The notes under the pieces: generated by a model | What the model saw: only the letters and a program-made list of their open reading frames with translations | Database searches by the model: none | What the model was told of the DNA's origin: nothing | From: Vicinamibacteraceae bacterium | Lineage (GTDB): Bacteria; Acidobacteriota; Thermoanaerobaculia; Multivoradales; Multivoraceae | Reading direction: 5' to 3' | Assembly (NCBI GenBank): GCA_012270995.1 | Contig: JAAXHG010000134.1 | Span: forward strand, 1-64,000 | Length of the DNA stretch: 64,000 nucleotides | Made by a program: the position numbers and the translations under genes | Shown here: in pieces, positions 36,010-51,101 of the stretch | How positions within the stretch are numbered: position 1 is the stretch's first letter | How the letters are laid out: the number at the start of each line of letters is the position of its first letter

Positions 36010-37260
36010 ATGAAGCAAAGTCACCTCTGTACCGCCGTCTGCCTGCTCGCCCTGGCCGCCTGCGCCGCCCAGGACGGACCTCTCCGCCCCGGCGCCAACG
36101 ACCACAAGACCCTCCAGGAAACCCTGCTCGTCGCCGAGCCCGGGGCCGTCATCGAGCTCGGCGCCGGCCGCTTCGAACTCGACGCGACCCTCTCCCTCGA
36201 CGTCGAGGGCGTGACGCTTCGCGGCCAGGGCATGGAGGAGACGATCCTCGACTTCGCCAGCCAGGCGCCGGGTACCGGCGGCGAGGGGGTTCTGGTCACG
36301 GCCGACGACTTCACGGTCGAGAACCTCGCCGTCGAGAACACGCAAGGCGACGGCATCAAGGTCGAGGGCACGACCGGCGCCGCCTTCCGCAACGTGCGGG
36401 TCGAGTGGACCAACGGCCCGGACACGAACAACGGCGCCTACGGTCTCTACCCGGTCCAGGTGACGAACGTCCTGATCGAGGACAGCCGGGTACGCGGCGC
36501 ATCGGACGCCGGCATCTACGTCGGTCAGTCCGCCAACGTGGTCGTGCGGCGCAACGAGGTGTGGGAAAACGTGGCCGGGATCGAGATCGAGAACACGACC
36601 GGCGCGGACGTCTACGAGAACCGGGTCCACGGCAACACGGGCGGCCTGCTCGTCTTCTCCCTGCCGGAGCTTCCGGTCAAGGACGGCCGGGACGCGCGCG
36701 TGTACGACAACGAGATCGCGGACAACAACCTGCCCAACTTCGGCAAGGAGGGAGCGATCGTCTCCACGATTCCGGCCGGCTCGGGGATCATCGTCATGGC
36801 CAGCGACAACGTCGAGCTGTTCGGAAACCGGATCCGGAACAACCAGAACTCGAACCTCGCGGTGATCTCCTACCTCTCGACCGGACGCGCCTACAACGAT
36901 CCCGGTTACGACCCGTACACCGAGGGCATCTACATCCACGACAACGAGTTCGTCGGCGGCGGCGACCGGCCGAACGGGGCCTTCGCGGACGCGTTCGTCG
37001 AACTGGCCGGCGGCGCCTTCCCGGACATCGTGTGGGACGGCGTGGTCAACCCTGACCGGCTCGTCGACGGCGCGGTGCCCGATGAACTCCGCCTCTACAT
37101 CGAAAACAACGGGGACGCGGACTTCGTCAACCTCGACGTCGGGGCCGTGTTCGCGGGCGGGCAGCCGGACGTCAGCACGGATCTGGCGGCCCACCAGGGC
37201 GCACTGCCGGCGGTTCCGCAGCCGGTCGACCTGGGAGCGGCGACCGGTGGCGCTCCGTAG
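36010..37260 (+). CDS. Parallel beta-helix lipoprotein (TIGR03805-like)
   Basis: A 416-residue lipoprotein (lipobox LALAAC) built of right-handed beta-helix turns. Recurring N-x-V-x-x-N and I-E-D-S/N phrases (FTVENLAVENTQGDGIKVEG, VVVRRNEVWENVAGIEIENT, VELFGNRIRNNQNSN) define the coils. It matches the family routinely found next to SO2930-type di-heme cytochromes, and such a gene directly follows with a 14-base overlap. The pair's role is unknown; a surface or periplasmic redox function is usually supposed. Confidence 0.88.
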   Translation: MKQSHLCTAVCLLALAACAAQDGPLRPGANDHKTLQETLLVAEPGAVIELGAGRFELDATLSLDVEGVTLRGQGMEETILDFASQAPGTGGEGVLVTADDFTVENLAVENTQGDGIKVEGTTGAAFRNVRVEWTNGPDTNNGAYGLYPVQVTNVLIEDSRVRGASDAGIYVGQSANVVVRRNEVWENVAGIEIENTTGADVYENRVHGNTGGLLVFSLPELPVKDGRDARVYDNEIADNNLPNFGKEGAIVSTIPAGSGIIVMASDNVELFGNRIRNNQNSNLAVISYLSTGRAYNDPGYDPYTEGIYIHDNEFVGGGDRPNGAFADAFVELAGGAFPDIVWDGVVNPDRLVDGAVPDELRLYIENNGDADFVNLDVGAVFAGGQPDVSTDLAAHQGALPAVPQPVDLGAATGGAP

Positions 37261-38350
37261 CCGACTCGCGATCGCCGCGCTCGCGCTGGCGGGCTGCACT
37301 GCAGGCGACCGCGGTTCAGCCGACGGCCCGTTCGCCCGCTACCCCGGGACGCTCTCGGCCTGGGATCTGTTCGTCCGCGAGCCGGCCGACCACGTCCCCG
37401 CCGCCGGCGTCGAGGCCTACGACCTGAATACGCCGCTCTTCTCCGATTACGCGCTGAAGCTCCGCTTCATCCTGTTCCCCACCGCGCCGGACGGAGCCCC
37501 GCAGCCCGCTACGTACCGTGATGCGGGGCCGTTCGAGTTCCCGGTCGGCACGGTGATCGCGAAGACCTTCGCCTATCCGGCCGACTTCCGGTCCCCGGAC
37601 GCGGATCCGCGTCTGCTCGAAACCAGACTCCTCATCCACGAACAGGACGGCTGGGTCGGGCTGCCCTACATCTGGAACGAGGAGCAGACCGACGCGGAAC
37701 TCGTGATCGTCGGCGGTCCCCTCGACGTCTCGTGGATCGACGGCAGCGGCCGGACGGTTGAGCACACCTACCGCGTGCCGAACACGAACCAATGCAAGAA
37801 CTGTCACCGCACCGACGGCGAACGGCTGCTGCCCATCGGTCCGCGCGCCGGTCAGTTGAACCGCGAGTCCGTCTACGCCGACGGTGGCGACGGGCCCGGC
37901 CGCGCCGAGAATCAGCTCGCCCGCTGGCGGCGTCTCGGCCTGCTCGAGGATGCCCCACCGCCAGCCGAGGCGCCCCGGGCGCCGGTCTGGAACGACTCCT
38001 CGACCGGCAGCCTCGGCGAGCGCGCCCGCACCTGGCTCGACATCAACTGCGCCCACTGCCACAACCTCGAGGGGAGCGGACGCACCTCAGGACTCGACCT
38101 GCGCGCGGCCCACGACGACCGGACCCGCCTCGGCGTCTACAAGCATCCGGTCGCCGCCGGCCAGGGCACCGGCGACCGGCTCTACGGCGTCGTGCCCGGC
38201 CGTCCGGACGAATCGATCCTGGTCTACCGGCTCGAGTCGGTACACCCCGGCGTGATGATGCCGGAACTCGGCCGCGGCCTGGTCGATGTCGAAGCGGTCG
38301 CGCTGATCCGCCAGTGGATCGAAGAGATGGAACCCGGAACCGAAGCCTGA
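37247..38350 (+). CDS. SO2930-family di-heme c-type cytochrome
   Basis: A 367-residue lipoprotein (LALAGC) with two heme-binding motifs, CKNCH near residue 183 and CAHCH near residue 268, and the family blocks LSAWDLFVREPADHVPAAGV, YDLNTPLFSDYALKLRF and FPVGTVIAKTFAYP. It corresponds to TIGR03806. The start is a GTG inside the end of the beta-helix gene, with GGGAG upstream. The two genes form a conserved pair seen in many marine and soil bacteria. Confidence 0.92.
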   Translation: MALRSRLAIAALALAGCTAGDRGSADGPFARYPGTLSAWDLFVREPADHVPAAGVEAYDLNTPLFSDYALKLRFILFPTAPDGAPQPATYRDAGPFEFPVGTVIAKTFAYPADFRSPDADPRLLETRLLIHEQDGWVGLPYIWNEEQTDAELVIVGGPLDVSWIDGSGRTVEHTYRVPNTNQCKNCHRTDGERLLPIGPRAGQLNRESVYADGGDGPGRAENQLARWRRLGLLEDAPPPAEAPRAPVWNDSSTGSLGERARTWLDINCAHCHNLEGSGRTSGLDLRAAHDDRTRLGVYKHPVAAGQGTGDRLYGVVPGRPDESILVYRLESVHPGVMMPELGRGLVDVEAVALIRQWIEEMEPGTEA

Positions 38351-38373: not shown

Positions 38374-39030
38374 CTACTCCGCCAGCACCTGCCGTGCGCG
38401 GTGGAAGACCTCGTCCAGGCCAACCCGGTCCGAGCCGTAGTCGCCCCGGACGCGACCGCCCTGGTCGACGAGAACCAGGCGCGTCGTATGCGCCACATCG
38501 ACCGCGCCGCCCGACAGGATCAGGCGCTCACCCATCGGCTGTTTGAATCCGTCCTCCACCAACGACCGCACGTTCTGCTCAATCCCGCTAACGAGACTCC
38601 ACCGCTCGTCGTCGAGGCCGCGACTCTGGGCAAACTCCCGCAGGCGCTCGGGCGTGTCGTACCCCGGATCGACCGAGAAGCTCACGAGACGGACACCCTG
38701 GACACCCTCCTCCCGAAACCTCAGCCCCAACTCGCGCAGCGACGCGGTCATCCGCGGACAGACAGCCGGGCAACGGGTGAACAGGAAGGAAGCAACGTAG
38801 ACGTCGCCGGCGAGGTCGCCGCTGCCGAAGGCCTCGCCGTTCTGGTCCACCAGCCGCCACTCGGGCAAGCGGCTCACGACCGGCGGCGGATCCGGCTCGA
38901 ACCGGAGCAGCGGCCGCAGGGCCGGAATCAGCACGACACCGCCGAGGGCGGCCAGAAACCAGGGATTCAGCAGCCGGCGGCGGGGTGGAATCGCCGCTCC
39001 TTTTGACCTCTCGGAACCTCCCTCCGGCAC
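38374..39030 (-). CDS. SCO1/SenC family copper chaperone
   Basis: A 218-residue membrane-anchored thioredoxin-fold protein. One N-terminal helix (LNPWFLAALGGVVLIPAL) precedes the copper-binding motif Cys87-PAV-Cys91 and a conserved His in DVAHTTRLVLVD. SCO proteins deliver copper to the CuA site of heme-copper oxidases or act as thiol reductases. No CuA oxidase subunit is in the window; it is transcribed away from the act genes. SCO genes commonly accompany alternative complex III operons. Confidence 0.92.
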   Translation of the reverse strand: MPEGGSERSKGAAIPPRRRLLNPWFLAALGGVVLIPALRPLLRFEPDPPPVVSRLPEWRLVDQNGEAFGSGDLAGDVYVASFLFTRCPAVCPRMTASLRELGLRFREEGVQGVRLVSFSVDPGYDTPERLREFAQSRGLDDERWSLVSGIEQNVRSLVEDGFKQPMGERLILSGGAVDVAHTTRLVLVDQGGRVRGDYGSDRVGLDEVFHRARQVLAE

Positions 39031-39142: not shown

Positions 39143-39790
39143 TTGGCACAGATCTTCCCCAAGTGGACCCTAAAGGTCCCGCTGTACCTCGCGGCCGCGC
39201 TGCCGGTTGCCGGCGCCGCGGCGGTGGGCGCCGTCTGGTACTACGGTTCGCCCGAGTACACCGATGTCGGCTACCGGCCGGCACAGCCGGTCCCCTACAG
39301 CCACGCCCTCCATGTCGGCGAACTCGGCCTCGACTGCCGCTACTGCCACGCCTCCGTCGAAGAGTCGGCGGTGTCGAACATTCCCCCCACGCAGGTATGC
39401 ATGAACTGCCACCATGTCGCGTTGCGCGAGAGCGAACTCCTCGAACCGGTCCGCAAGAGCGCGGAACAGGGCCGCCCGTTGCGTTGGGTGCGGATCCACA
39501 ACCTGCCCGACTACGCCTTCTTCGATCACAGCGTCCACGTCGGCGCCGGGGTCGGCTGCCGGAGCTGTCACGGGCCGGTCCATGAGATGGAGGTCGTCTA
39601 CCAGGCCGAACCGCTGAGCATGAGCTGGTGCCTCGACTGTCATCGCGACCCGGGTCCCAATCTCCGGCCGCTCGACGCCGTCACCGACATGGAGTGGACC
39701 CCGACCGGCGATCACGCTGCCTTCGCCGAGCAGGCGATCGCGGAACGTGGTCTCGCGCCGCCCGAAGACTGCACGGGGTGCCACCGATGA
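39143..39790 (+). CDS. actA: Alternative complex III pentaheme cytochrome ActA
   Basis: A 215-residue protein with an N-terminal membrane helix (LYLAAALPVAGAAAVGAVWYY) and five CxxCH heme motifs: CRYCH (residues 65-69), CMNCH, CRSCH, CLDCH and CTGCH. Order and spacing match ActA, the pentaheme subunit of alternative complex III, a quinol:cytochrome c oxidoreductase. The TTG start has a good ribosome-binding site and its stop overlaps the actB start (ATGA). A cytochrome c3-like protein is the broader family. Confidence 0.92.
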   Translation: MAQIFPKWTLKVPLYLAAALPVAGAAAVGAVWYYGSPEYTDVGYRPAQPVPYSHALHVGELGLDCRYCHASVEESAVSNIPPTQVCMNCHHVALRESELLEPVRKSAEQGRPLRWVRIHNLPDYAFFDHSVHVGAGVGCRSCHGPVHEMEVVYQAEPLSMSWCLDCHRDPGPNLRPLDAVTDMEWTPTGDHAAFAEQAIAERGLAPPEDCTGCHR

Positions 39791-42700
39791 GCACGGGCAG
39801 CGGCCACCGGCCGCCCAGGACGTACTGGCGCAGCCTCGAACAGGTCCGGGGCGATTCCCGGGCGACCGAGTTCCTCCACCGGGAGTTTCCGCCGGACGCC
39901 TCCGAGGCGCCGGCGAAGCTGCTCGAGGACGGAGTCAGCCGGCGCTCCGTGCTGGCGATGCTGGGCGCCACGACCTCCCTGGCCGGCCTGACCGGCTGCG
40001 AGATCATCCGCCGGCCGGTGGAGCACATCGTTCCCTACGTCGACGCGCCGGAAGGCATGGTTCCCGGCGTTCCTCTGGAGTACGCCACCACGATGCCGCT
40101 CGGCAACCGGGCCCTCGGGCTCCTCATGGAGAGCCACGACGGCCGGCCGACCAAGGTCGAGGGCAACGAGCGCCACCCGTCTTCGGGCGGCGCGTCGAGC
40201 GTCTGGGCGCAAGCCTCCATCCTCGACCTGTACGACCCGGATCGCTCGAAGACGGTGCGATTCGGCGACCAGGCGTCCTCCTGGAACGAGTTCGTCGCCG
40301 CCTGGACCGAGGGCGACCTCGCTCCCGCCGCGGACGGTTCCGGATTGGCTGTTCTGGCCGAACCGTCTTCGTCGCCCACGATGTTGCGCCTCAAGTCGGC
40401 GCTTCTCGAACGCTATCCCCAGGCTCGCTGGGTGACCTGGCAACCGGTCAGCGACGAGAACGTCGACCGCGGCGTCGAGTCGGCCGCCGGCGATCACTAC
40501 CACGCCCTCTACCACCTGGAACGGGCGCGGGTTCTGCTCTCCCTGGACTCCGACCTCCTGAGCACCGAGGGCGACAGCGTCCGCAACCTGCGGGGCTACG
40601 CCAGGTCCCGGCGGGCGGGCGACAACGGCTCGCCGGAGATGCTCCGGCACTACGCCGTCGACGGCGTCCACTCGCTCACGGCCGCCAACGCGGACCACCG
40701 CCTCCGCGTGCAGAGCGGTCGCGTCGCGGCCTTCGTCGCCCGGTTGGGGCACGCCTTCGCGGCGCAGGGCATGGAACTGCCGCTCGAGGGCGCCGCAGCG
40801 GCCGAGGACATCGACGACGACTGGGTGGAGGCGGTCGCCAGGGACCTGCTCGATCACCGCGGCGCGGGCCTGATCGTCGCGGGCGACCGGCAGCCGGCGG
40901 AGGTCCACGCGGCGGTCTACGCACTGAACTCGATGCTCGGCAACATCGGTGCGACCGTGACCTACCACCAGACGCCGGATACCGGCACTTCGAGCGACGC
41001 CGACCTGGCCGCGCTGGTCGCGGCGATGAACGAAGGCACCGTCGACCGGCTGCTCGTTCTGGGCGCGAACCCCGCCTACAGCGTGCCCGCCGACCTCGAC
41101 TTCGCCGCCGCCCTCGAGAACACCGGGAGCAGCGGCGCGGTCATCCATGTCGGCACCCACCTCGACGAAACCAGCCGGTTCGCCCGCTGGCACATTCCCT
41201 TGGCCCACTATCTGGAGAGCTGGGGGGACGCCCGAGCCACCGACGGCACGGCCAGCGTGGTACAGCCCCTGATCGAGCCCCTCTGGGGCGCCAGGAGCGC
41301 CCTCGAGGTGCTCGCCCTGGCCGCCCTGGGCGAGCCGCGGGACGGCCGTGACCTGGTCCGCGAGACCTGGTCCGAGCTGCTGGGGCTGCCGCTCGATGAC
41401 GGCGCCGAAGCGGAAGCGCCGGCGCCCGCCGAGGAAGCCGCGGAGGCCGAGCCGGAGGACGCCAGCGAGGAGGCCGAGGCCCCACCCGTCGATCCCATGT
41501 CGCTGCCGTTTCCCGTCGCGCTCTCCGAGTTCGAAGTCGCCTGGCGCCGGGTGCTCCACGATGGTGTGCAGGAGGGCAGTGCGCTACCCGCCGCCGAGCT
41601 GACCACGGTCGCTCCGGAGGACTGCGCCGCCGCCGTTCAGGCCGCCGGCGACGCCGCCGGTCCGGTCGCTGCCGGCGAGGAATACGAGGTCGTCTTCCGC
41701 AGCTCACCGGCGCTCTACGATGGGCGCTTCGCGAACAACGGCTGGCTCCAGGAGCTCCCCGATCCGATCACCAAGCTGACCTGGGACAACGCCGCGCTCG
41801 TCAGCCCGGCCACCGCCGACGCGCTCGGGCTGGAGAACGAGGACCTGATCACCGTCACCCGCAGCGAGCGGGAACTCGAACTGCCGGTGTGGAAGGTGCC
41901 CGGCCAGGCCGACCACACGGTGACGATCGATCTCGGCTACGGCCGCGACTTCGGCGGCCGGATCGCCAGCACCGCGAACGACGAAGACCACACTCCGGGC
42001 GCGAACGCGTATCTGCTCCGCACCTCGAACGCGCTCCATTTCGGTCGCTGCGCACTGCGAGCCAGCGGCGGCAGCTACGCCCTGGCACAGACCCAGGACC
42101 ACCACTCGATGGAAGGCCGGCCGATCGTCAAGGAAGCGGACCTCGACTACTTCGAAGAGCACCCCGACTTCGCCACCGCCCACAGCGAGAAGCCGCACGA
42201 GAACTCGATGTGGGACGAGTGGACCTACGAGGATTCGCCCCAGTGGGGCATGACGATCGACCTGAACGCCTGCGTCGGCTGCAACGCCTGCGTCGTCGCC
42301 TGCCAGAGCGAGAACAACGTGCCGATCGTCGGCAAGGAGCAGGTGATCGAAGGCCGGGAGATGCACTGGCTCCGCATCGACCGCTACTTCTCCGACGAGG
42401 GAGAATCCCGCGGCATGCTCCGGGACCTCGTCCGCGACCTCCCCGCTGAGCCGCAGACCAGCTTCCAGCCCGTTCCCTGCATGCAGTGCGAGAACGCACC
42501 CTGCGAACAGGTCTGCCCGGTCGCCGCCACCGTGCACGACGGCGAAGGCCTCAACGCGATGGTCTACAACCGCTGCATCGGCACCCGCTACTGCTCGAAC
42601 AACTGCCCCTACAAGGTGCGGCGCTTCAACTACTTCAACTTCACCAAGGACACTCCCGAGGTGATGAAGCTGGGCAAGAACCCGGACGTGACGATCCGTT

Positions 42701-43050
42701 CGCGGGGTGTCATGGAGAAGTGCACCTACTGCGTCCAGCGGATCAGCCGCGCGAAGGTCGACGCCAAGCAGGACGGTCGACCCCTCGCAGACGGCGATGT
42801 GGTCACCGCCTGCCAGCAGGCGTGTCCGGCCGACGCGATCCGCTTCGGCGACATCACGGACGCCGCCAGCGGCGTTTCCGAGGCCAAGGCCAGTCCCCGC
42901 AACTACAACCTGCTCGACGACCTGCACACGAAGCCGCGCACCACCTACCTGGCGAAGCTGCGCCATCCCAACCGGGACATCACGCCGGCGCCGCCGCCGG
43001 CCGAAGATCACGGCGAAGAGAGAGCCGGACACGGCGAGGACGCCCACTGA
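39787..43050 (+). CDS. actB: Alternative complex III iron-sulfur subunit ActB
   Basis: A 1087-residue ActB with both halves fused. Residues 10-75 are the extended Tat signal with the YWRSLEQ and EFLHREFP blocks and the twin Arg at 52-53 followed by SVLAM. Residues 80-800 resemble a molybdopterin oxidoreductase, but in characterised ActB no molybdenum cofactor is bound. An acidic Ala/Glu insertion is near residue 545. The C-terminal part has four ferredoxin-type clusters, starting with Cys829, Cys832, Cys835 and Cys839 (CVGCNACVVAC), then CMQCENAPCEQVC, CIGTRYCSNNC and CTYC...CQQAC. The ActC anchor normally encoded next is absent; an ActE-like cytochrome overlaps its stop instead. Confidence 0.93.
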   Translation: MSTGSGHRPPRTYWRSLEQVRGDSRATEFLHREFPPDASEAPAKLLEDGVSRRSVLAMLGATTSLAGLTGCEIIRRPVEHIVPYVDAPEGMVPGVPLEYATTMPLGNRALGLLMESHDGRPTKVEGNERHPSSGGASSVWAQASILDLYDPDRSKTVRFGDQASSWNEFVAAWTEGDLAPAADGSGLAVLAEPSSSPTMLRLKSALLERYPQARWVTWQPVSDENVDRGVESAAGDHYHALYHLERARVLLSLDSDLLSTEGDSVRNLRGYARSRRAGDNGSPEMLRHYAVDGVHSLTAANADHRLRVQSGRVAAFVARLGHAFAAQGMELPLEGAAAAEDIDDDWVEAVARDLLDHRGAGLIVAGDRQPAEVHAAVYALNSMLGNIGATVTYHQTPDTGTSSDADLAALVAAMNEGTVDRLLVLGANPAYSVPADLDFAAALENTGSSGAVIHVGTHLDETSRFARWHIPLAHYLESWGDARATDGTASVVQPLIEPLWGARSALEVLALAALGEPRDGRDLVRETWSELLGLPLDDGAEAEAPAPAEEAAEAEPEDASEEAEAPPVDPMSLPFPVALSEFEVAWRRVLHDGVQEGSALPAAELTTVAPEDCAAAVQAAGDAAGPVAAGEEYEVVFRSSPALYDGRFANNGWLQELPDPITKLTWDNAALVSPATADALGLENEDLITVTRSERELELPVWKVPGQADHTVTIDLGYGRDFGGRIASTANDEDHTPGANAYLLRTSNALHFGRCALRASGGSYALAQTQDHHSMEGRPIVKEADLDYFEEHPDFATAHSEKPHENSMWDEWTYEDSPQWGMTIDLNACVGCNACVVACQSENNVPIVGKEQVIEGREMHWLRIDRYFSDEGESRGMLRDLVRDLPAEPQTSFQPVPCMQCENAPCEQVCPVAATVHDGEGLNAMVYNRCIGTRYCSNNCPYKVRRFNYFNFTKDTPEVMKLGKNPDVTIRSRGVMEKCTYCVQRISRAKVDAKQDGRPLADGDVVTACQQACPADAIRFGDITDAASGVSEAKASPRNYNLLDDLHTKPRTTYLAKLRHPNRDITPAPPPAEDHGEERAGHGEDAH

Positions 43051-43664
43051 TGCGGCCGCCCTACCCCGTCACGCGCCTGGCGCCGGGCCTCCGGCTTGCT
43101 CCGCTGGCAGCCATGCTGATCCTGCTCGGCTGCCGCGGCATGTCCTCGCCGTTCCCGCCGATCCACCCGAACCCGAACATGGACTACCAGGAGCGCTACG
43201 ACCCGCAGGAAGCGAGCGACTTCTTCTACGACGGCATGGCGATGCGCCAACCGGTCGCGGGCACCGTGGCGAGGGGACAGCTCAACGTGGATCACCGCCT
43301 GCTCTTCGGCCGCGACGACGAGGGCTACTTCCTGGACTCCTCCCCGGTCCCCGCAAGCGACGAGGTCCTGGCTCGCGGCAGAGATCGCTACGCCATCTAC
43401 TGCCAGCCCTGCCACGACGAGCGCGGCACCGGCCAGGGCATCCTGTTCGAACGGGCAGCCACTCCGACCGCCACCCTTCATGACGAGTTGCGGCTCGGCT
43501 ACAGCGACGGCCGCCTCTACGACATCATCACAAACGGCTCCGGGCTAATGGCCGGCTACCGCTACCCGCTCACTGTCGAAGATCGATGGGCGATCGTCTC
43601 CTACGTCCGCGAGTTGCAGGAAGAACGCCGCACGATGGAGGCGGAGCGGGCCGCCCGCCAGTAG
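43050..43664 (+). CDS. ActE-like monoheme cytochrome c lipoprotein
   Basis: A 204-residue lipoprotein (lipobox LILLGC) with one heme motif CQPCH and an axial Met candidate in GLMAGYRYPL. The MDYQERYDPQEASDFFYDGMAMR segment matches ActE-type subunits. Its ATG overlaps the actB stop (TGATG), so it is translationally coupled to actB without ActC or ActD in between. Confidence 0.88.
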   Translation: MRPPYPVTRLAPGLRLAPLAAMLILLGCRGMSSPFPPIHPNPNMDYQERYDPQEASDFFYDGMAMRQPVAGTVARGQLNVDHRLLFGRDDEGYFLDSSPVPASDEVLARGRDRYAIYCQPCHDERGTGQGILFERAATPTATLHDELRLGYSDGRLYDIITNGSGLMAGYRYPLTVEDRWAIVSYVRELQEERRTMEAERAARQ

Positions 43665-43685: not shown

Positions 43686-45608
43686 GTGAGCAGAAACAAG
43701 ATCCTCTTCGGAATCGGCGTTCTCGCCTTCATCGCGGTCATCGTCACGGTGCGCCTGGGTGGTTTCCTGGTGGACAACGAGTATCGCCAGCCGGAGCGGC
43801 AGGTCGCCGTCGAGGAAGCGGCCGGCGAAGCCGAGGCGACGCCGCGCCAGCAGGGCATCGCGGACGAGCAGGCCGCCGACGAGGCCGAGGCGAGAGCCAG
43901 GCCATACGTAGAGGCCGAGTACCGCACCGTCCCCTTCGTCGGCAGCCGGGTCACGGTCTGGGTGCTGGCGCAGCTCCACCTGCTGTTCGCGGCGTTCGTG
44001 CTGGCGGTGCCGATCTTCGCCTTCATCATCGAGTTCATCGGCTACGTCACCGGTGAAAAGCGCTACGACAGGCTGGCCTACGAGTTCACCAAGCTCCTCT
44101 CGGTCTCGTTCTCGATGACCGCCACCTTCGGGGCGTTCCTGACCTTCGCGTTGATCATCCTCTACCCGAAGTTCACGAACTACCTGATGCACATCTTCTC
44201 GCCGACGTTCCTGCCGTATGTGCTGCTGTTCTTCCTGGAAGCGCTCTTCCTCTACAGCTACTACTACGGCTGGGGCAAGTTCGGCCCGAAGATGCACCTG
44301 TTCCTGGGCTTCATGCTGAACGTGGTCGGAACGGCGATCATGTTCATCGCGAACGCCTGGCTGACCTTCATGATGTCGCCCGGCAAGCGGGAGGACGTCG
44401 ACGGCGACGGCGTCCCGGACTTCGTCTCCGCCGTCTCGGAGAGCGGCGCGCTGCTGAGCCTCCGGGACGCGTTCTTCAACTTCACGTGGATGCCGATCAA
44501 CATCCACCGGATCATCGCCAACGTCGCCTTCGGCGGCTCGATCGCCGCCGCCTACGCGGCCTTCCGCTACCTCCAGGCAAAGAACGACGAAGACAAGGCG
44601 CACTTCGACTGGATGGGCTACGTCGGCAACTTCGTCGCCATCATCGCCTTCCTGCCCCTGCCGTTCGCCGGCTACTACCTCGCCGCCGAGATCTACGCCT
44701 ACAGCCAGACCCTGGGCATCCAGATGATGGGCAGCACTTTCTCATGGCTGTTCGTCATTCAGGCGGCCCTGATCGGCAATCTGTTCCTGGGCGCGAACTA
44801 CTACCTGTGGCTCGGAATGGGGCGGATCGAGGGCACCGTCCACTTCCAGAAGTTCATCAAGTGGCTGCTGATCGCGATCGCAATCTGCTTCGCGGTCTGG
44901 GCCACGCCTCGATACGCGATCTCCTCGGTGTCCGAGATCGCCGCGATGGGCGGCAGCAGCCACCCGCAACTCTCCTACCTGGGGCAGATGTCGGCCAAGA
45001 ACACGGCGGTCAACATCCTCATCCTGTCCACTTACATGAGCTTCCTGCTTTACCGGCGGACCGGCAGAACCTCAATCCACCCGCACCGACAGCTCCTTAC
45101 GCGCGCCCAGGCGATCGTCTTCTCCACCGCGGCCATGCTGGTCATCTTCTTTGGCGTCTATGGCTACCAGGTCGACGCAGCGACGCGCATCCGGTTCGCG
45201 ATACCCCAGGTCTACTCGGTGCTCGCCGCCATGGTTGTCATCACCGTGATCGACCTGCCCCTCTACCGGAACGCCCGGCAGGCAGCTCAGACGCACTGGG
45301 GGAAGATGCCCGCGATCTCTCAGTACGCGCTGATATTCATCGCGCTCAGCTTCACCTGGCTGATGGGCTTGATGGGGTATGTCCGCTCCGGCCTGCGAGG
45401 CGAATGGCATGTATATGGAGTGGTCCTCGACACCTCACCAGACGCCTACACCCCCACCCTCGGGTTCGCCACCCAGGTTGTCTCGGTCACGGTCCTCATT
45501 TTCTTCGGTCTGATCGGCGTTGTCTTCTGGCTCAGCAGCCTCGGCGGCAAGAAAGCCTATGAACCGCAGGCGGCCGCTGATGCCGACGGGCAACTGGAAG
45601 GGGCTTAG
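43686..45608 (+). CDS. CydA-like bd-type oxidase subunit I, cytochrome c-linked type
   Basis: A 640-residue integral membrane protein with about ten helices. It begins with a helix, then an acidic Glu/Ala-rich periplasmic stretch (residues 35-80) not present in classic CydA. LAQLHLLFA, FLEALFLYSYYYGWGKFG, MFIANAWLTFMMSP and NIHRIIANVAFGG align with CydA; the two His are candidate heme ligands. The GRQPW-type motif of the quinol site is not visible; RSGLRGEWHVYG occupies a late position instead. The Met ligand of heme b558 also seems replaced. No CydB gene is present. I infer an oxygen reductase fed by cytochrome c or by ActAB rather than directly by quinol, similar to the cytochrome c-associated bd subfamilies. 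It begins 22 bases after the ActE-like gene. Confidence 0.85.
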   Translation: MSRNKILFGIGVLAFIAVIVTVRLGGFLVDNEYRQPERQVAVEEAAGEAEATPRQQGIADEQAADEAEARARPYVEAEYRTVPFVGSRVTVWVLAQLHLLFAAFVLAVPIFAFIIEFIGYVTGEKRYDRLAYEFTKLLSVSFSMTATFGAFLTFALIILYPKFTNYLMHIFSPTFLPYVLLFFLEALFLYSYYYGWGKFGPKMHLFLGFMLNVVGTAIMFIANAWLTFMMSPGKREDVDGDGVPDFVSAVSESGALLSLRDAFFNFTWMPINIHRIIANVAFGGSIAAAYAAFRYLQAKNDEDKAHFDWMGYVGNFVAIIAFLPLPFAGYYLAAEIYAYSQTLGIQMMGSTFSWLFVIQAALIGNLFLGANYYLWLGMGRIEGTVHFQKFIKWLLIAIAICFAVWATPRYAISSVSEIAAMGGSSHPQLSYLGQMSAKNTAVNILILSTYMSFLLYRRTGRTSIHPHRQLLTRAQAIVFSTAAMLVIFFGVYGYQVDAATRIRFAIPQVYSVLAAMVVITVIDLPLYRNARQAAQTHWGKMPAISQYALIFIALSFTWLMGLMGYVRSGLRGEWHVYGVVLDTSPDAYTPTLGFATQVVSVTVLIFFGLIGVVFWLSSLGGKKAYEPQAAADADGQLEGA

Positions 45609-45613
45609 TCGGC

Positions 45614-46081
45614 ATGAAGCTGAACGTCCCGATGCCGGTCAAGATGGTCCTGCTGGTCCTCGGCACGACTGCCTTCTACATGTACCTCGGCCAGATCGTG
45701 CCGCAGAAGGAAGTGCACCCGCCACCGCCGGTCCTCATCGACCCGGGCATGACGACCGAAGACCTGATCGAGGTCGGCCGTGAACTGGTCAACGGCAGGG
45801 GCATCTGCATGGACTGTCACAACGATGTTCGCGCGCCGGCCTTCGACGGCGTCGGAGCCCGTGCCAGCAGCCGGATCGAGGGACTGTCCGACATCGAGTA
45901 CCTGGCCCAGTCCCTGTACGATCCAGACGCCTTCCTCGTCCCCGGCTTCGCCCAAGGCATGCAGAAGATGAACGAGCCTCCCATCAGCTTCTCGGACGAA
46001 GAGATGAAGGCAGTCGTCGCCTGGCTGCAGAGCCAGGGCGGCACAGCAACAGTCACGCTGGAAACCGACCTCGGCTATTGA
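45614..46081 (+). CDS. Membrane-anchored monoheme cytochrome c
   Basis: A 155-residue protein with an N-terminal membrane helix (VKMVLLVLGTTAFYMYLG), one heme motif CMDCH, and a likely axial Met in FAQGMQKM. It starts five bases after the CydA-like gene and is probably its electron donor or a fixed subunit. No close family name is evident. Confidence 0.9.
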   Translation: MKLNVPMPVKMVLLVLGTTAFYMYLGQIVPQKEVHPPPPVLIDPGMTTEDLIEVGRELVNGRGICMDCHNDVRAPAFDGVGARASSRIEGLSDIEYLAQSLYDPDAFLVPGFAQGMQKMNEPPISFSDEEMKAVVAWLQSQGGTATVTLETDLGY

Positions 46082-46204: not shown

Positions 46205-47023
46205 GTGTCGGCAATCAATCTACCGCTCGTTCTTGCCCTGCTCGCCGCCGCCGGCCTGATGGTGTGGCGCCGCGCGAATACCTTCACCTGGCTCCTCTTC
46301 ACCTGGCTGTCGCTTTGGGCCTTCTTCAAGTTCGGTCTGACGGTGCCCATTCCCCAGTCGGTGGTAACGATCTACGTCGGCATCATGACCCTCGCGGTCG
46401 TCAGCTATGCCTCCTCGAGCCGCGAACGGTTGTCGGAAACGGTCCAGCCGATCGTGCGCCTGATCGTTGAACCGCGTTTCCGCCTGCTGCTTGCCGCGCT
46501 TCTCATCGGGCTGCCTGCCCTCGCCGCCTACAACGTCTACGCGGACATGAGCGCGCCTCTGGAGGCACCCGGCTTTGGACGGGAGATCCATCCGGCACCG
46601 CCACCTGAGATCACAGTGCACGATGAGACGGTCAACATGACGACCGCTGACAACCCTTACCTCCATCTCCACGAGGACGATCCGGCAGCCTGGGAGGAGC
46701 ACCTGGAGAGCGGACGCCGCGTCTACTACGAGAACTGCTTCTGGTGCCACGGCGACGGCATGGGCGGCGACGGCATGTTCGCCCACGGTCTGAACCCGGT
46801 GCCCAGCAACTTCAACGACGTCGGTACGCTCCCGGCCCTGCAATCCTCCTTCGTCCACTGGCGGATCGCCAAGGGCGGCCCCGGTCTTCCGGATGGCGGC
46901 ACGCCCTGGGACAGCGCCATGCCGGCCTGGGAGAAATTCCTGACCACCGAGGAGATGTGGGACGTCAACCTGTTCATCTACGAGTTCAACGACTTCGAGC
47001 CGCGGGCTCTGGGGCAGCACTGA
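46205..47023 (+). CDS. Membrane cytochrome c with three N-terminal helices
   Basis: A 272-residue protein. Three predicted helices (residues 5-20, 28-70, 92-112) precede a periplasmic cytochrome c domain with CFWCH and MPAWEKFLT as the axial Met region. The combination of a small helical anchor and one heme suggests a fixed subunit of the bd-like complex. It starts with GTG and its stop overlaps the next start (TGATG). Confidence 0.88.
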   Translation: MSAINLPLVLALLAAAGLMVWRRANTFTWLLFTWLSLWAFFKFGLTVPIPQSVVTIYVGIMTLAVVSYASSSRERLSETVQPIVRLIVEPRFRLLLAALLIGLPALAAYNVYADMSAPLEAPGFGREIHPAPPPEITVHDETVNMTTADNPYLHLHEDDPAAWEEHLESGRRVYYENCFWCHGDGMGGDGMFAHGLNPVPSNFNDVGTLPALQSSFVHWRIAKGGPGLPDGGTPWDSAMPAWEKFLTTEEMWDVNLFIYEFNDFEPRALGQH

Positions 47024-48908: not shown

Positions 48909-51101
48909 ATGTACAAGACGATCTACGTCCCCGTCGACAACTCGGACTACTCGAACCAGGCGATCGCGTCCGCGGTCGAGTTGGGTCGCAAGTTCGACTC
49001 CACGATGGTCGGCTGCCACGTCTACGCGGCCAGCATGCACGACTACCGGTTCAAGCAGATGGAGTACACCCTGCCGGACGAGTACCTCGAGGAGACCGAG
49101 CTCGACCGCCAGCGGAAGATCCACGACTCGCTGATCACGATGGGGCTGGAGCTCATCTCCGAGAGCTACCTCGAGCCGATGAAGGCGGTCTGCGACGAAG
49201 CGGACCTCGAGTTCGAGCCGAAGATGATGGACGGCAAGCACCACGTCGAGATCGTGCGCGACATCCGCGAGTCCGGTTACGACCTGACGGTGCTCGGGGT
49301 GATGGGCATCGGCCGCGTCCGCGACACCCAGATCGGCTCCGTCTGCGAACGCGTCGCCCGCACCGCCGACCGGGACGTGCTGGTCATCAAGCGTTTGCCG
49401 GCGAAGGCCGGGGCGACGAACGGGAACGGCAACGGGAACGGCCACCAGGCGGAGGCCGAGGCCGACGGCCGCGACACGATTCTCGTCGGAGTCGACGGCT
49501 CGCCCCAGTCCTTCGGAGCGCTGATGACCGCGATCGACCTGGCGAAGACGTTCGGCAAGAAGGTCGAGGCGATCTCGGTCTACGACCCCTACCTGCACTA
49601 CTCGGTGTTCAAGGGCGTCGTCAACGTGCTCACCGAGCGCGCGGCGAAGATCTTCCGCTTCGAGGAGCAGAACCAGCTCCACGAGGAGATCATCGACACG
49701 GGTCTGGCGCAGATCTACCAGTCCCACCTGGACGTCGCCGAGACGATGGCGACCGAGGTGGGCGTCGAGCTGACGAAGACCCTTCTCGACGGCAAGGCAT
49801 TCCAGAAGGTCCTCGACCACGCGCGGAAGATCGACCCCTGGATGCTCGTCATCGGCCGGGTCGGCGTCCACTCCGACGACAGCGAAACCGGCCTCGGCAG
49901 CAACGCCGAGAACCTGCTCCGCGCCTGCCCCTGCGACCTGCTCCTGACCACCCGCCTCGAGTACCCGGAACTCGACGTCAAGGCCGAGGAGAGCATCCGC
50001 TGGACTCCCGAAGCCGAGGAGCGCTTCACGCGCGTGCCGGAACAGGTTCGCGGCATCGCCCGTACCGCTCTGTACCGCCTGGCGGTCGAACAGGGTCATA
50101 GCGTGATCTCGAGCGACGTGCTCGACGAGGCAATGGACCGCTACATGCCGAAGTACACCGCCCGCGAGACGGAGGCCCTCGCCGAGCAGGTCGCCCTGCA
50201 GCTCGCCCGCAGCAGACCCACCTTCATCTGCAGGAAGTGCGGGGTCACCTCCGCGGAGCCCGATCCGGTGCGCTGCGGCGTCTGCGGCAGCGAGTCGTTC
50301 GAGCAGATCACCGAAGAGATGCTCGACCGGATCGCCGAGATGGAGGGCGGCCTCGAGGTCGAGACCACCTACGACGGCCGCAAGCTGAAGTGGACCGCCG
50401 ACGCCCGCCTGGCCCTCAAGACGATCGAGGACGCCTACCGCCGCCGACGCGCCAAGGCGCGGATCGAGAAGAAGGCGCGGATGAGCAAGCTGCCGGCCGT
50501 CACCTTCGAGTTCGCTCGCGTGATGATCGAGGAGGAGACCGGCGAGCCGGTGACGATCGAGGCCCGCGAGGCGGCCGCAGAGGCGAACGGCAACGGCACC
50601 GCCGAAGCAACCGCGGACGAGCGGAAGCTGGTCGCCCGCGACGACGACCGCGTACCGCTGCTCTCGACCTTCGAGTGGTCGGCCGATGCGACCGAGCGCA
50701 TCCTCCGGGTCCCGGCCGGCTTCATGCGGGACCGCACCCAGGAGCGCGTCGAGCTGGTGGCCCGTGAGAAGCACGTCTCCCGGATCGGCATCAAGACGGT
50801 CGAGGAGGGCATCGAGCTTGGCCGCAAGCTGATGGAGCAGATGATCGCGGCCTACGAGATCGACAAGAAGGACGAGTCACCCGCCAAGGATGTCGCCGAA
50901 GCCGAAGCGCAAGCCGCGACCGCCGCCGGCAGATGCCCCTTCTCCGCTCTCGCCGAAGCCGGCGCAAGCGAAGCCCAGGTCGAGGCGGCCAAGGACGCGA
51001 AGGCCGGCACCTACCTCGCAAAGTCCGACAGCTACCTGAACGAGGTCGGCCTGATGTCGGCCCTCGACGAGAAGCGCAAGGCCGGCGAACCGGAAGCCTG
51101 A
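48909..51101 (+). CDS. Tandem universal-stress protein with zinc ribbon and PCP_red-like modules
   Basis: A 730-residue cytosolic protein. Two UspA domains occupy residues 1-160 and 180-345; the first ends in the nucleotide-binding pattern GIGRVRDTQIGSVCERV. Residues 364-415 read WTPEAEERFTRVPEQVRG and match the C-terminal domain of light-independent protochlorophyllide reductase (PCP_red). A zinc ribbon follows (Cys441, Cys444, Cys456, Cys459), then two more divergent copies of the module (starting KWTADARLAL and EWSADATERILRVP). A CPFS motif lies near the C-terminus. It is 65 bases after the cytochrome genes and likely belongs to the same system, perhaps as a regulator or tetrapyrrole carrier. 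That role is inference. Confidence 0.85.
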   Translation: MYKTIYVPVDNSDYSNQAIASAVELGRKFDSTMVGCHVYAASMHDYRFKQMEYTLPDEYLEETELDRQRKIHDSLITMGLELISESYLEPMKAVCDEADLEFEPKMMDGKHHVEIVRDIRESGYDLTVLGVMGIGRVRDTQIGSVCERVARTADRDVLVIKRLPAKAGATNGNGNGNGHQAEAEADGRDTILVGVDGSPQSFGALMTAIDLAKTFGKKVEAISVYDPYLHYSVFKGVVNVLTERAAKIFRFEEQNQLHEEIIDTGLAQIYQSHLDVAETMATEVGVELTKTLLDGKAFQKVLDHARKIDPWMLVIGRVGVHSDDSETGLGSNAENLLRACPCDLLLTTRLEYPELDVKAEESIRWTPEAEERFTRVPEQVRGIARTALYRLAVEQGHSVISSDVLDEAMDRYMPKYTARETEALAEQVALQLARSRPTFICRKCGVTSAEPDPVRCGVCGSESFEQITEEMLDRIAEMEGGLEVETTYDGRKLKWTADARLALKTIEDAYRRRRAKARIEKKARMSKLPAVTFEFARVMIEEETGEPVTIEAREAAAEANGNGTAEATADERKLVARDDDRVPLLSTFEWSADATERILRVPAGFMRDRTQERVELVAREKHVSRIGIKTVEEGIELGRKLMEQMIAAYEIDKKDESPAKDVAEAEAQAATAAGRCPFSALAEAGASEAQVEAAKDAKAGTYLAKSDSYLNEVGLMSALDEKRKAGEPEA

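Follow-up and report, generated by a model that had tools for sequence, protein, structure and literature searches.

A CydA-like protein without a quinol loop, encoded behind ActABE genes of an apparently split alternative complex III

Does a CydA-like gene that lies among cytochrome c genes and has no cydB beside it encode a quinol oxidase, or a protein that receives its electrons from cytochrome c? The question arises from an open reading frame in a 64,000-nucleotide stretch of DNA (hereafter the window) on contig C94 of a sponge-associated Acidobacteriota genome. The frame is real, with the exact boundaries originally proposed, a Pfam match and relatives in other genomes: about 30 genes from elsewhere in the phylum are 66–92% identical over most of the length, which excludes a chance frame, and relatives are encoded at 429 places in named genomes. 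The Pfam match (PF01654, Cyt_bd_oxida_I; E 4e-25) covers residues 87–338 only, and a phmmer search of the PDB returned CydA chains alone below E 0.01.

Structure prediction extended this similarity well beyond the domain match. An AF2 model of the 640-residue protein, built from 46 sequences (window or locus), contains 14 helices of transmembrane length (pLDDT 74.9, pTM 0.75). All solved CydA chains aligned to the model with VIA Z scores of 27.7–30.3 over 341–356 residues, and the next unrelated fold followed at Z 7.8. Because these alignments run across model residues 78–628, the whole chain is CydA-like, beyond the N-terminal part visible to Pfam. Residues 3–30 form a membrane anchor and residues 85–622 the CydA core, in which inserted helices replace the Q-loop. 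Between anchor and core lies a linker of about 50 amino acids, probably periplasmic, with 13 D/E, 6 R and no K by sequence count over residues 31–85. The acidic N-terminal insertion that had been noted is therefore present in this protein as an anchor and an acidic linker, but its acidity is not conserved among relatives. The anchor and linker are common to relatives with the alternative complex III (ACIII) genes ActABE upstream, among which the acid excess ranges from -5 to +11, and this variation in net charge gives no support to the acidic linker as a conserved docking site. Relatives without ActABE mostly begin with a signal peptide-like segment in place of anchor and linker, a pattern that would be consistent with a periplasmic N-terminus.

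We next consider the residues that bind heme, protons and quinol. The ligands in E. coli bd-II are H19 for heme d, H186 and M393 for heme b558 and E445 for heme b595, and E99 is close to heme d (PMC8585947); E107 is a proton donor in E. coli bd (PMC13189123). When E. coli CydA and 14 canonical Acidobacteriota CydAs were aligned as a control (n=15), H19, E99, E107, S140, N148, H186, K252, E257, M393, W441, E445 and RQPW were invariant in 15/15 sequences. Positions in the window protein were mapped by profile and MAFFT alignments, so that ligand assignments rest on sequence alignment; in the C-terminal half, where alignment is weak, the M393 and E445 positions rest on fold and motif similarity. 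Equivalents are kept for H19 (H98), E107 (E185), N148 (N223), H186 (H274) and W441 (W558), and the histidines at H98 and H274 do stand in the CydA-like contexts originally described. The E99 equivalent is lost (it maps on P177/Y178), as are those of M393 (A437, with an invariant M435 two residues off) and E445 (L562). Among the four positions originally singled out for mapping, Glu107 and His186 thus have equivalents, and Glu99 and Met393 have none. Because the E99 and E445 equivalents are gone, a second high-spin heme would be left with no obvious ligand. The Q-loop, with K252 and E257, is absent altogether; helices at about 351–405 take its place, and two additional helices (468–527) follow the TM7 equivalent.

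The original prediction had taken the missing GRQPW string as the loss of a quinol-binding motif. The string is indeed absent, the homologous helix carrying a degenerate form (LRGEWHVYGV, against a family consensus of RQHWHVYGV) preceded by a six-residue insert. As a quinol motif, however, GRQPW had to be discarded, for it adjoins the heme b595 ligand E445, and quinol binds at the Q-loop (control alignment; PMC8585947, PMC13189123). As a separate observation, CydA in two relatives (L055, 5350–7899, minus strand; L056, 5651–8200, minus strand) continues at its C-terminus into a fused diheme cytochrome c, and in both a lysine replaces the histidine equivalent to the heme d ligand H19.

A tree on 199 core columns, comprising the 15 canonical CydAs, the window protein and its relatives, placed the canonical quinol-oxidising sequences (n=15) in a clade with an UFBoot value of 100 for its node, and the window protein outside it, as had been anticipated. 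The window protein and 22 relatives form a separate group (support 93), and two more divergent forms, L059 and L155, fall outside both. L155 (G369:C29) is a short CydA-like frame whose C-terminal part holds the heme c motifs CYACH and CSDCH; it does not match E. coli CydA significantly and is possibly of the OR-C type. At two other loci, L114 and L119, a second divergent CydA-like sequence (38–40% identity) lies close to the first module, accompanied by TM-cytochrome and EB_dh genes.

Neither of the possible partner subunits was found. CydB (PF02322) had no match near the gene or anywhere in the genome, with control genomes positive, which rules out a canonical bd oxidase with a distant CydB. 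A second CydA-type gene was likewise absent at E <= 10 in profile searches of this genome (G000) and of the single-contig genomes G184 and G125; each search gave one gene only, excluding a hidden second CydA. The original claim of no cydB neighbour accordingly holds at the level of the genome; a second CydA or CydB subunit, which would have spoken against the original reading, was not found there, and a single-contig genome of the same genus likewise gave one CydA only. As in the OR-N/OR-C families, the window protein is a bd-superfamily member outside qOR and devoid of a quinol site. CydAA' pairing, put forward for OR-N1/OR-N2 (PMC10839748), is not a defining trait of the family as a whole, and it cannot apply here because G000, G184 and G125 have one CydA-type gene each. 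Such single-CydA genomes allow a direct test of the CydAA' heterodimer model and of cytochrome c as donor.

The CydA-like gene belongs to an eight-gene operon that runs from ActA, ActB and ActE through the CydA-like gene and two membrane cytochromes c to a diheme/EB_dh NxrC-like protein and a Usp protein (Table 1), with intergenic distances from overlap up to 123 bp; ActE shares one base with the ActB stop.

Table 1. The operon and its divergent neighbour; columns give feature, position in the window, strand and properties.
SCO1/SenC copper chaperone	38374..39030	-	Pfam SCO1-SenC, E 4.5e-23; divergent from operon
ActA, pentaheme cytochrome c subunit of ACIII	39143..39790	+	5 CXXCH; best PDB match 6f0k_A, E 2e-67
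ActB, molybdopterin-like and Fe-S subunit of ACIII	39787..43050	+	best PDB match 6f0k_B, E 2e-268; overlaps ActA
ActE, monoheme cytochrome c subunit of ACIII	43050..43664	+	1 CXXCH; best PDB match 6f0k_E, E 9e-50
CydA-like bd-superfamily membrane subunit	43686..45608	+	640 aa; GTG start; 14 predicted TM helices; fourth gene of operon
Membrane-anchored monoheme cytochrome c	45614..46081	+	155 aa; 1 CXXCH; 5 bp past CydA
Multi-TM protein with C-terminal monoheme cytochrome c	46205..47023	+	272 aa; Pfam Cytochrome_CBB3
NxrC-like protein: diheme cytochrome c, EB_dh heme-b domain, C-terminal hydrophobic helix	47023..48843	+	606 aa, ~66 kDa; Pfam Cytochrome_CBB3 x2, EB_dh
Protein with two Usp and PCP_red domains	48909..51101	+	730 aa; Pfam; last operon gene; in most loci

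ActA is the only close copy in the genome and ActB the sole ACIII-type ActB. Cytochrome c genes do stand on both sides of the CydA-like gene, as originally seen: ActA and ActE upstream, and downstream the 155-aa (one CXXCH), 272-aa (one) and 606-aa (two) proteins. What that reading of the context missed was the ACIII half, ActABE, and the NxrC-like module. The diheme part of the 606-aa protein matches cytochrome 6h5l_B (E 1e-56), and the protein also hits TIGR03477 (DMSO_red_II_gam) at E 5e-22, under the cut-off of that model. The Usp/PCP_red protein (protochlorophyllide reductase 57 kD-like) closes the operon in many phyla. The SCO1/SenC gene adjoins the operon in the genus and a few others; in the window it stands between ActA and a pair of genes at 36010–38350, a TIGR03805 parallel beta-helix protein beside a TIGR03806 (SO2930-family) diheme cytochrome c.

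The downstream half of the operon is widely conserved. We took the best 80 of the 429 relatives in named genomes for locus counts; by record labels these come from about ten phyla and include Acidobacteriota (Thermoanaerobaculia, the group of this genome, and others), Calditrichota, Rhodothermales and other Bacteroidota, Fibrobacterota, Myxococcota, Hydrogenedentota, Verrucomicrobiota, Gemmatimonadota, NC10 and Chloroflexota. The module thus occurs far beyond nitrite oxidisers. Among these best 80 loci, the 155-aa cytochrome c had a match in all 80 (within 3.5 kb downstream of CydA in 76), the 272-aa cytochrome c lay downstream of CydA in 79, and the NxrC-like protein did so in 76. ActABE precedes the module in a subset of loci only, with ActB present in 38/80; elsewhere the module frequently follows caa3 genes.

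ActC, ActD and ActF are missing from the CydA operon and sit beside the caa3 genes on contig C77 (locus L037). ActC and ActF from that locus, like ActA, ActB and ActE from the window, match the Rhodothermus marinus ACIII best (PDB 6f0k), the C77 ActD also matches a known ACIII subunit, and the C77 ActC retains H139, D169 and D253, the quinol residues of R. marinus ActC (PMC8076601). Searches of the genome gave a single ACIII-type ActA, a single ACIII-type ActB, one COX1 and no bc1-type cytochrome b (PF00033). Because neither a further ACIII set nor a bc1 cytochrome b was found, the simplest reading is that one ACIII appears split over two operons, with the CydA-like gene in the ActABE half. 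An ActC 70–96% identical to that of C77 was present at a separate locus in 13/13 sampled genomes with ActABE before CydA, in six of them on the same contig about 20–40 kb from ActB, and three genomes without ActABE at the CydA module (G125, G198, G372) had no ActC above 58% identity. Ten sampled genomes outside the window genus have an additional ActB-ActC pair; within that genus, no other ACIII-type ActA or ActB was found as a partner for ActC.

The arrangement of the two halves varies. All subunits stand in a single row, ActC-D-F-A-B-E-CydA, at L109, and the halves are divergent at L104 and convergent at L091. A one-operon layout with ActC between ActB and ActE is not seen in this genome, where the genes are split between C94 and C77; they are likewise split in the remaining sampled genomes that carry the operon, and ActABE-CydA without internal ActC, ActD or ActF recurred in 15/20 loci from many families of the phylum. 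This recurring order, the ActB counts among named loci and the one-base overlap of ActB and ActE exclude a broken ACIII operon or an assembly error. For annotation, the correction is that ACIII would look incomplete if the CydA operon alone were searched. Elsewhere in the genome (L038; G000:C125:2000-16000), molybdopterin, Fe-S and NrfD-like subunits in a row form a separate ACIII-superfamily complex.

On balance, we think the OR-N-like bd-superfamily subunit is probably the terminal, O2-reducing part of a module fed by cytochrome c, with the split ACIII as electron source, and not a quinol oxidase. Read gene by gene, the operon gives a likely electron path. Quinol would be oxidised at ActC, encoded with ActD and ActF beside the caa3 oxidase; electrons would then pass through the ActB Fe-S clusters and the ActA and ActE hemes, and onward via the predicted periplasmic cytochromes beside CydA (155 aa, 272 aa and diheme/EB_dh) to a putative heme b at H274 and from there to a candidate high-spin heme at H98, with E185 as the likely proton donor. 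The caa3 oxidase would offer an alternative exit. A cytochrome c donor seems favoured because the whole Q-loop is lost, dedicated cytochromes c accompany the gene in an operon found across phyla, and L055 and L056 are fused to diheme cytochromes. The original proposal of a bd-superfamily member with cytochrome c as donor thus survives on its position outside the quinol clade, the lost Q-loop, the conserved cytochromes and the fusions, from which we infer the donor; its GRQPW ground does not.

O2 reduction appears less certain than the earlier reading assumed, because the E99 and E445 equivalents are lost. Also counting against the favoured reading are the lysine at the H19 position of the two cytochrome-fused relatives, the degenerate GRQPW helix and the lack of a counterpart in the window genome to the OR-N1/OR-N2 CydAA' pairing. 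A partial search of the literature found no experimentally tested OR-N member, and a 2013 paper suggested quinone interaction and reverse electron flow for a bd-like protein instead (PMC3578206). More tentatively still, one two-locus ACIII might feed two oxidases, its quinol half encoded alongside caa3 and its cytochrome half alongside a bd-type oxidase of one subunit that is driven by cytochrome c and physically bound to ACIII; if true, a bd enzyme would have switched from oxidising quinol to oxidising cytochrome c.

The alternative that fares best, though we judge it rather unlikely, is that the CydA-like protein carries electrons on heme b and is not an oxidase, linking periplasmic cytochromes with the quinone pool (for example in reverse flow) or serving an acceptor other than O2. 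Such a function has been suggested for bd-like proteins of Nitrospina and Nitrospira (PMC3578206, PMC6606698), and the missing E99 and E445 equivalents, the lysine in place of H98 in L055 and L056 and the caa3 oxidase already in the genome would all suit it. It accounts less readily for H98 and E185, which correspond to the ligand of heme d and the proton donor in E. coli bd and are invariant in the 46-sequence alignment, or for a module that in many phyla adjoins or follows oxidase genes, also in organisms that would seem not to need reverse flow. We consider it improbable that the protein is still a quinol oxidase whose inserted helices form a new quinol site: the inserted segment does hold the invariant residues E335, H426 and K438, yet every Q-loop residue is lost, the genome lacks CydB, and dedicated c-type cytochromes are conserved alongside the gene. 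Least credible is an own complex of ActA, ActB and the CydA-like protein, the latter replacing ActC and standing apart from the C77 ActCDF set, for the strict ActA-ActB-ActE-CydA co-linearity without intervening ActC, ActD or ActF is outweighed by the constant company of a C77-type ActC, its absence from the three genomes without ActABE, the lack of any other ACIII-type ActA or ActB for ActC in the window genus, and the ActC-D-F genes directly before ActA-B-E at L109.

The enzyme type at the end of the favoured cytochrome c-fed path is already known from genomes. In N. moscoviensis, a cluster combines bd-like_3, two membrane cytochromes c and alt_NxrC_2 (PMC6606698), and bd-like/alt-NxrC clusters also occur in Nitrospina and anammox bacteria (PMC6606698, PMC3578206). 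By published description, the Nitrospira bd-like_3/alt_NxrC_2 cluster has the same four parts as the window module: in both, the bd-like protein has 14 TM helices and no quinol residues, and the NxrC-like protein has two heme motifs and a TM helix (about 62 kDa in the Nitrospira type, 66 kDa here). The Nitrospina bd-like protein, with 14 TM helices and helices replacing the Q-loop (PMC3578206), is built in the same way as the window protein. What differs is the setting of the window module: it occurs in Acidobacteriota and further lineages that are not nitrifiers, it follows ACIII genes, and the genome has a single CydA-type gene.

Links between bd-like genes and ACIII have been described as well. 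In Nitrospirales, OR-N5 CydAA' lies immediately downstream of actABCDE (PMC12342949), and the N. marina ACIII has been likened to the one in sulfur-reducing Acidobacteria (PMC8115632). Both OR-N5 CydAA' and TO_3/TO_4 of Ca. Manganitrophus (PMC9040806) tie a bd-like gene to ACIII genes, as here; in the window genome, by contrast, ActC, ActD and ActF lie outside the operon at the caa3 locus, ActB is one gene and not B1 and B2, and there is no CydA'. A partial literature search found no description of ActABE without ActC, ActD and ActF joined to a bd-like module. With canonical cytochrome bd (qOR; E. coli CydAB), the window protein has in common the CydA fold and the equivalents of H19, E107, N148 and H186; it lacks the Q-loop, E99, M393, E445, GRQPW and CydB, and adds an N-terminal anchor and four core helices. 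The subunits of the R. marinus ACIII are encoded in one operon. Its ActA, ActB, ActE, ActC and ActF all have matching counterparts here, with the quinol residues of ActC conserved, whereas in this genome the genes occupy two loci and the bd-like module lies within the ActABE half.
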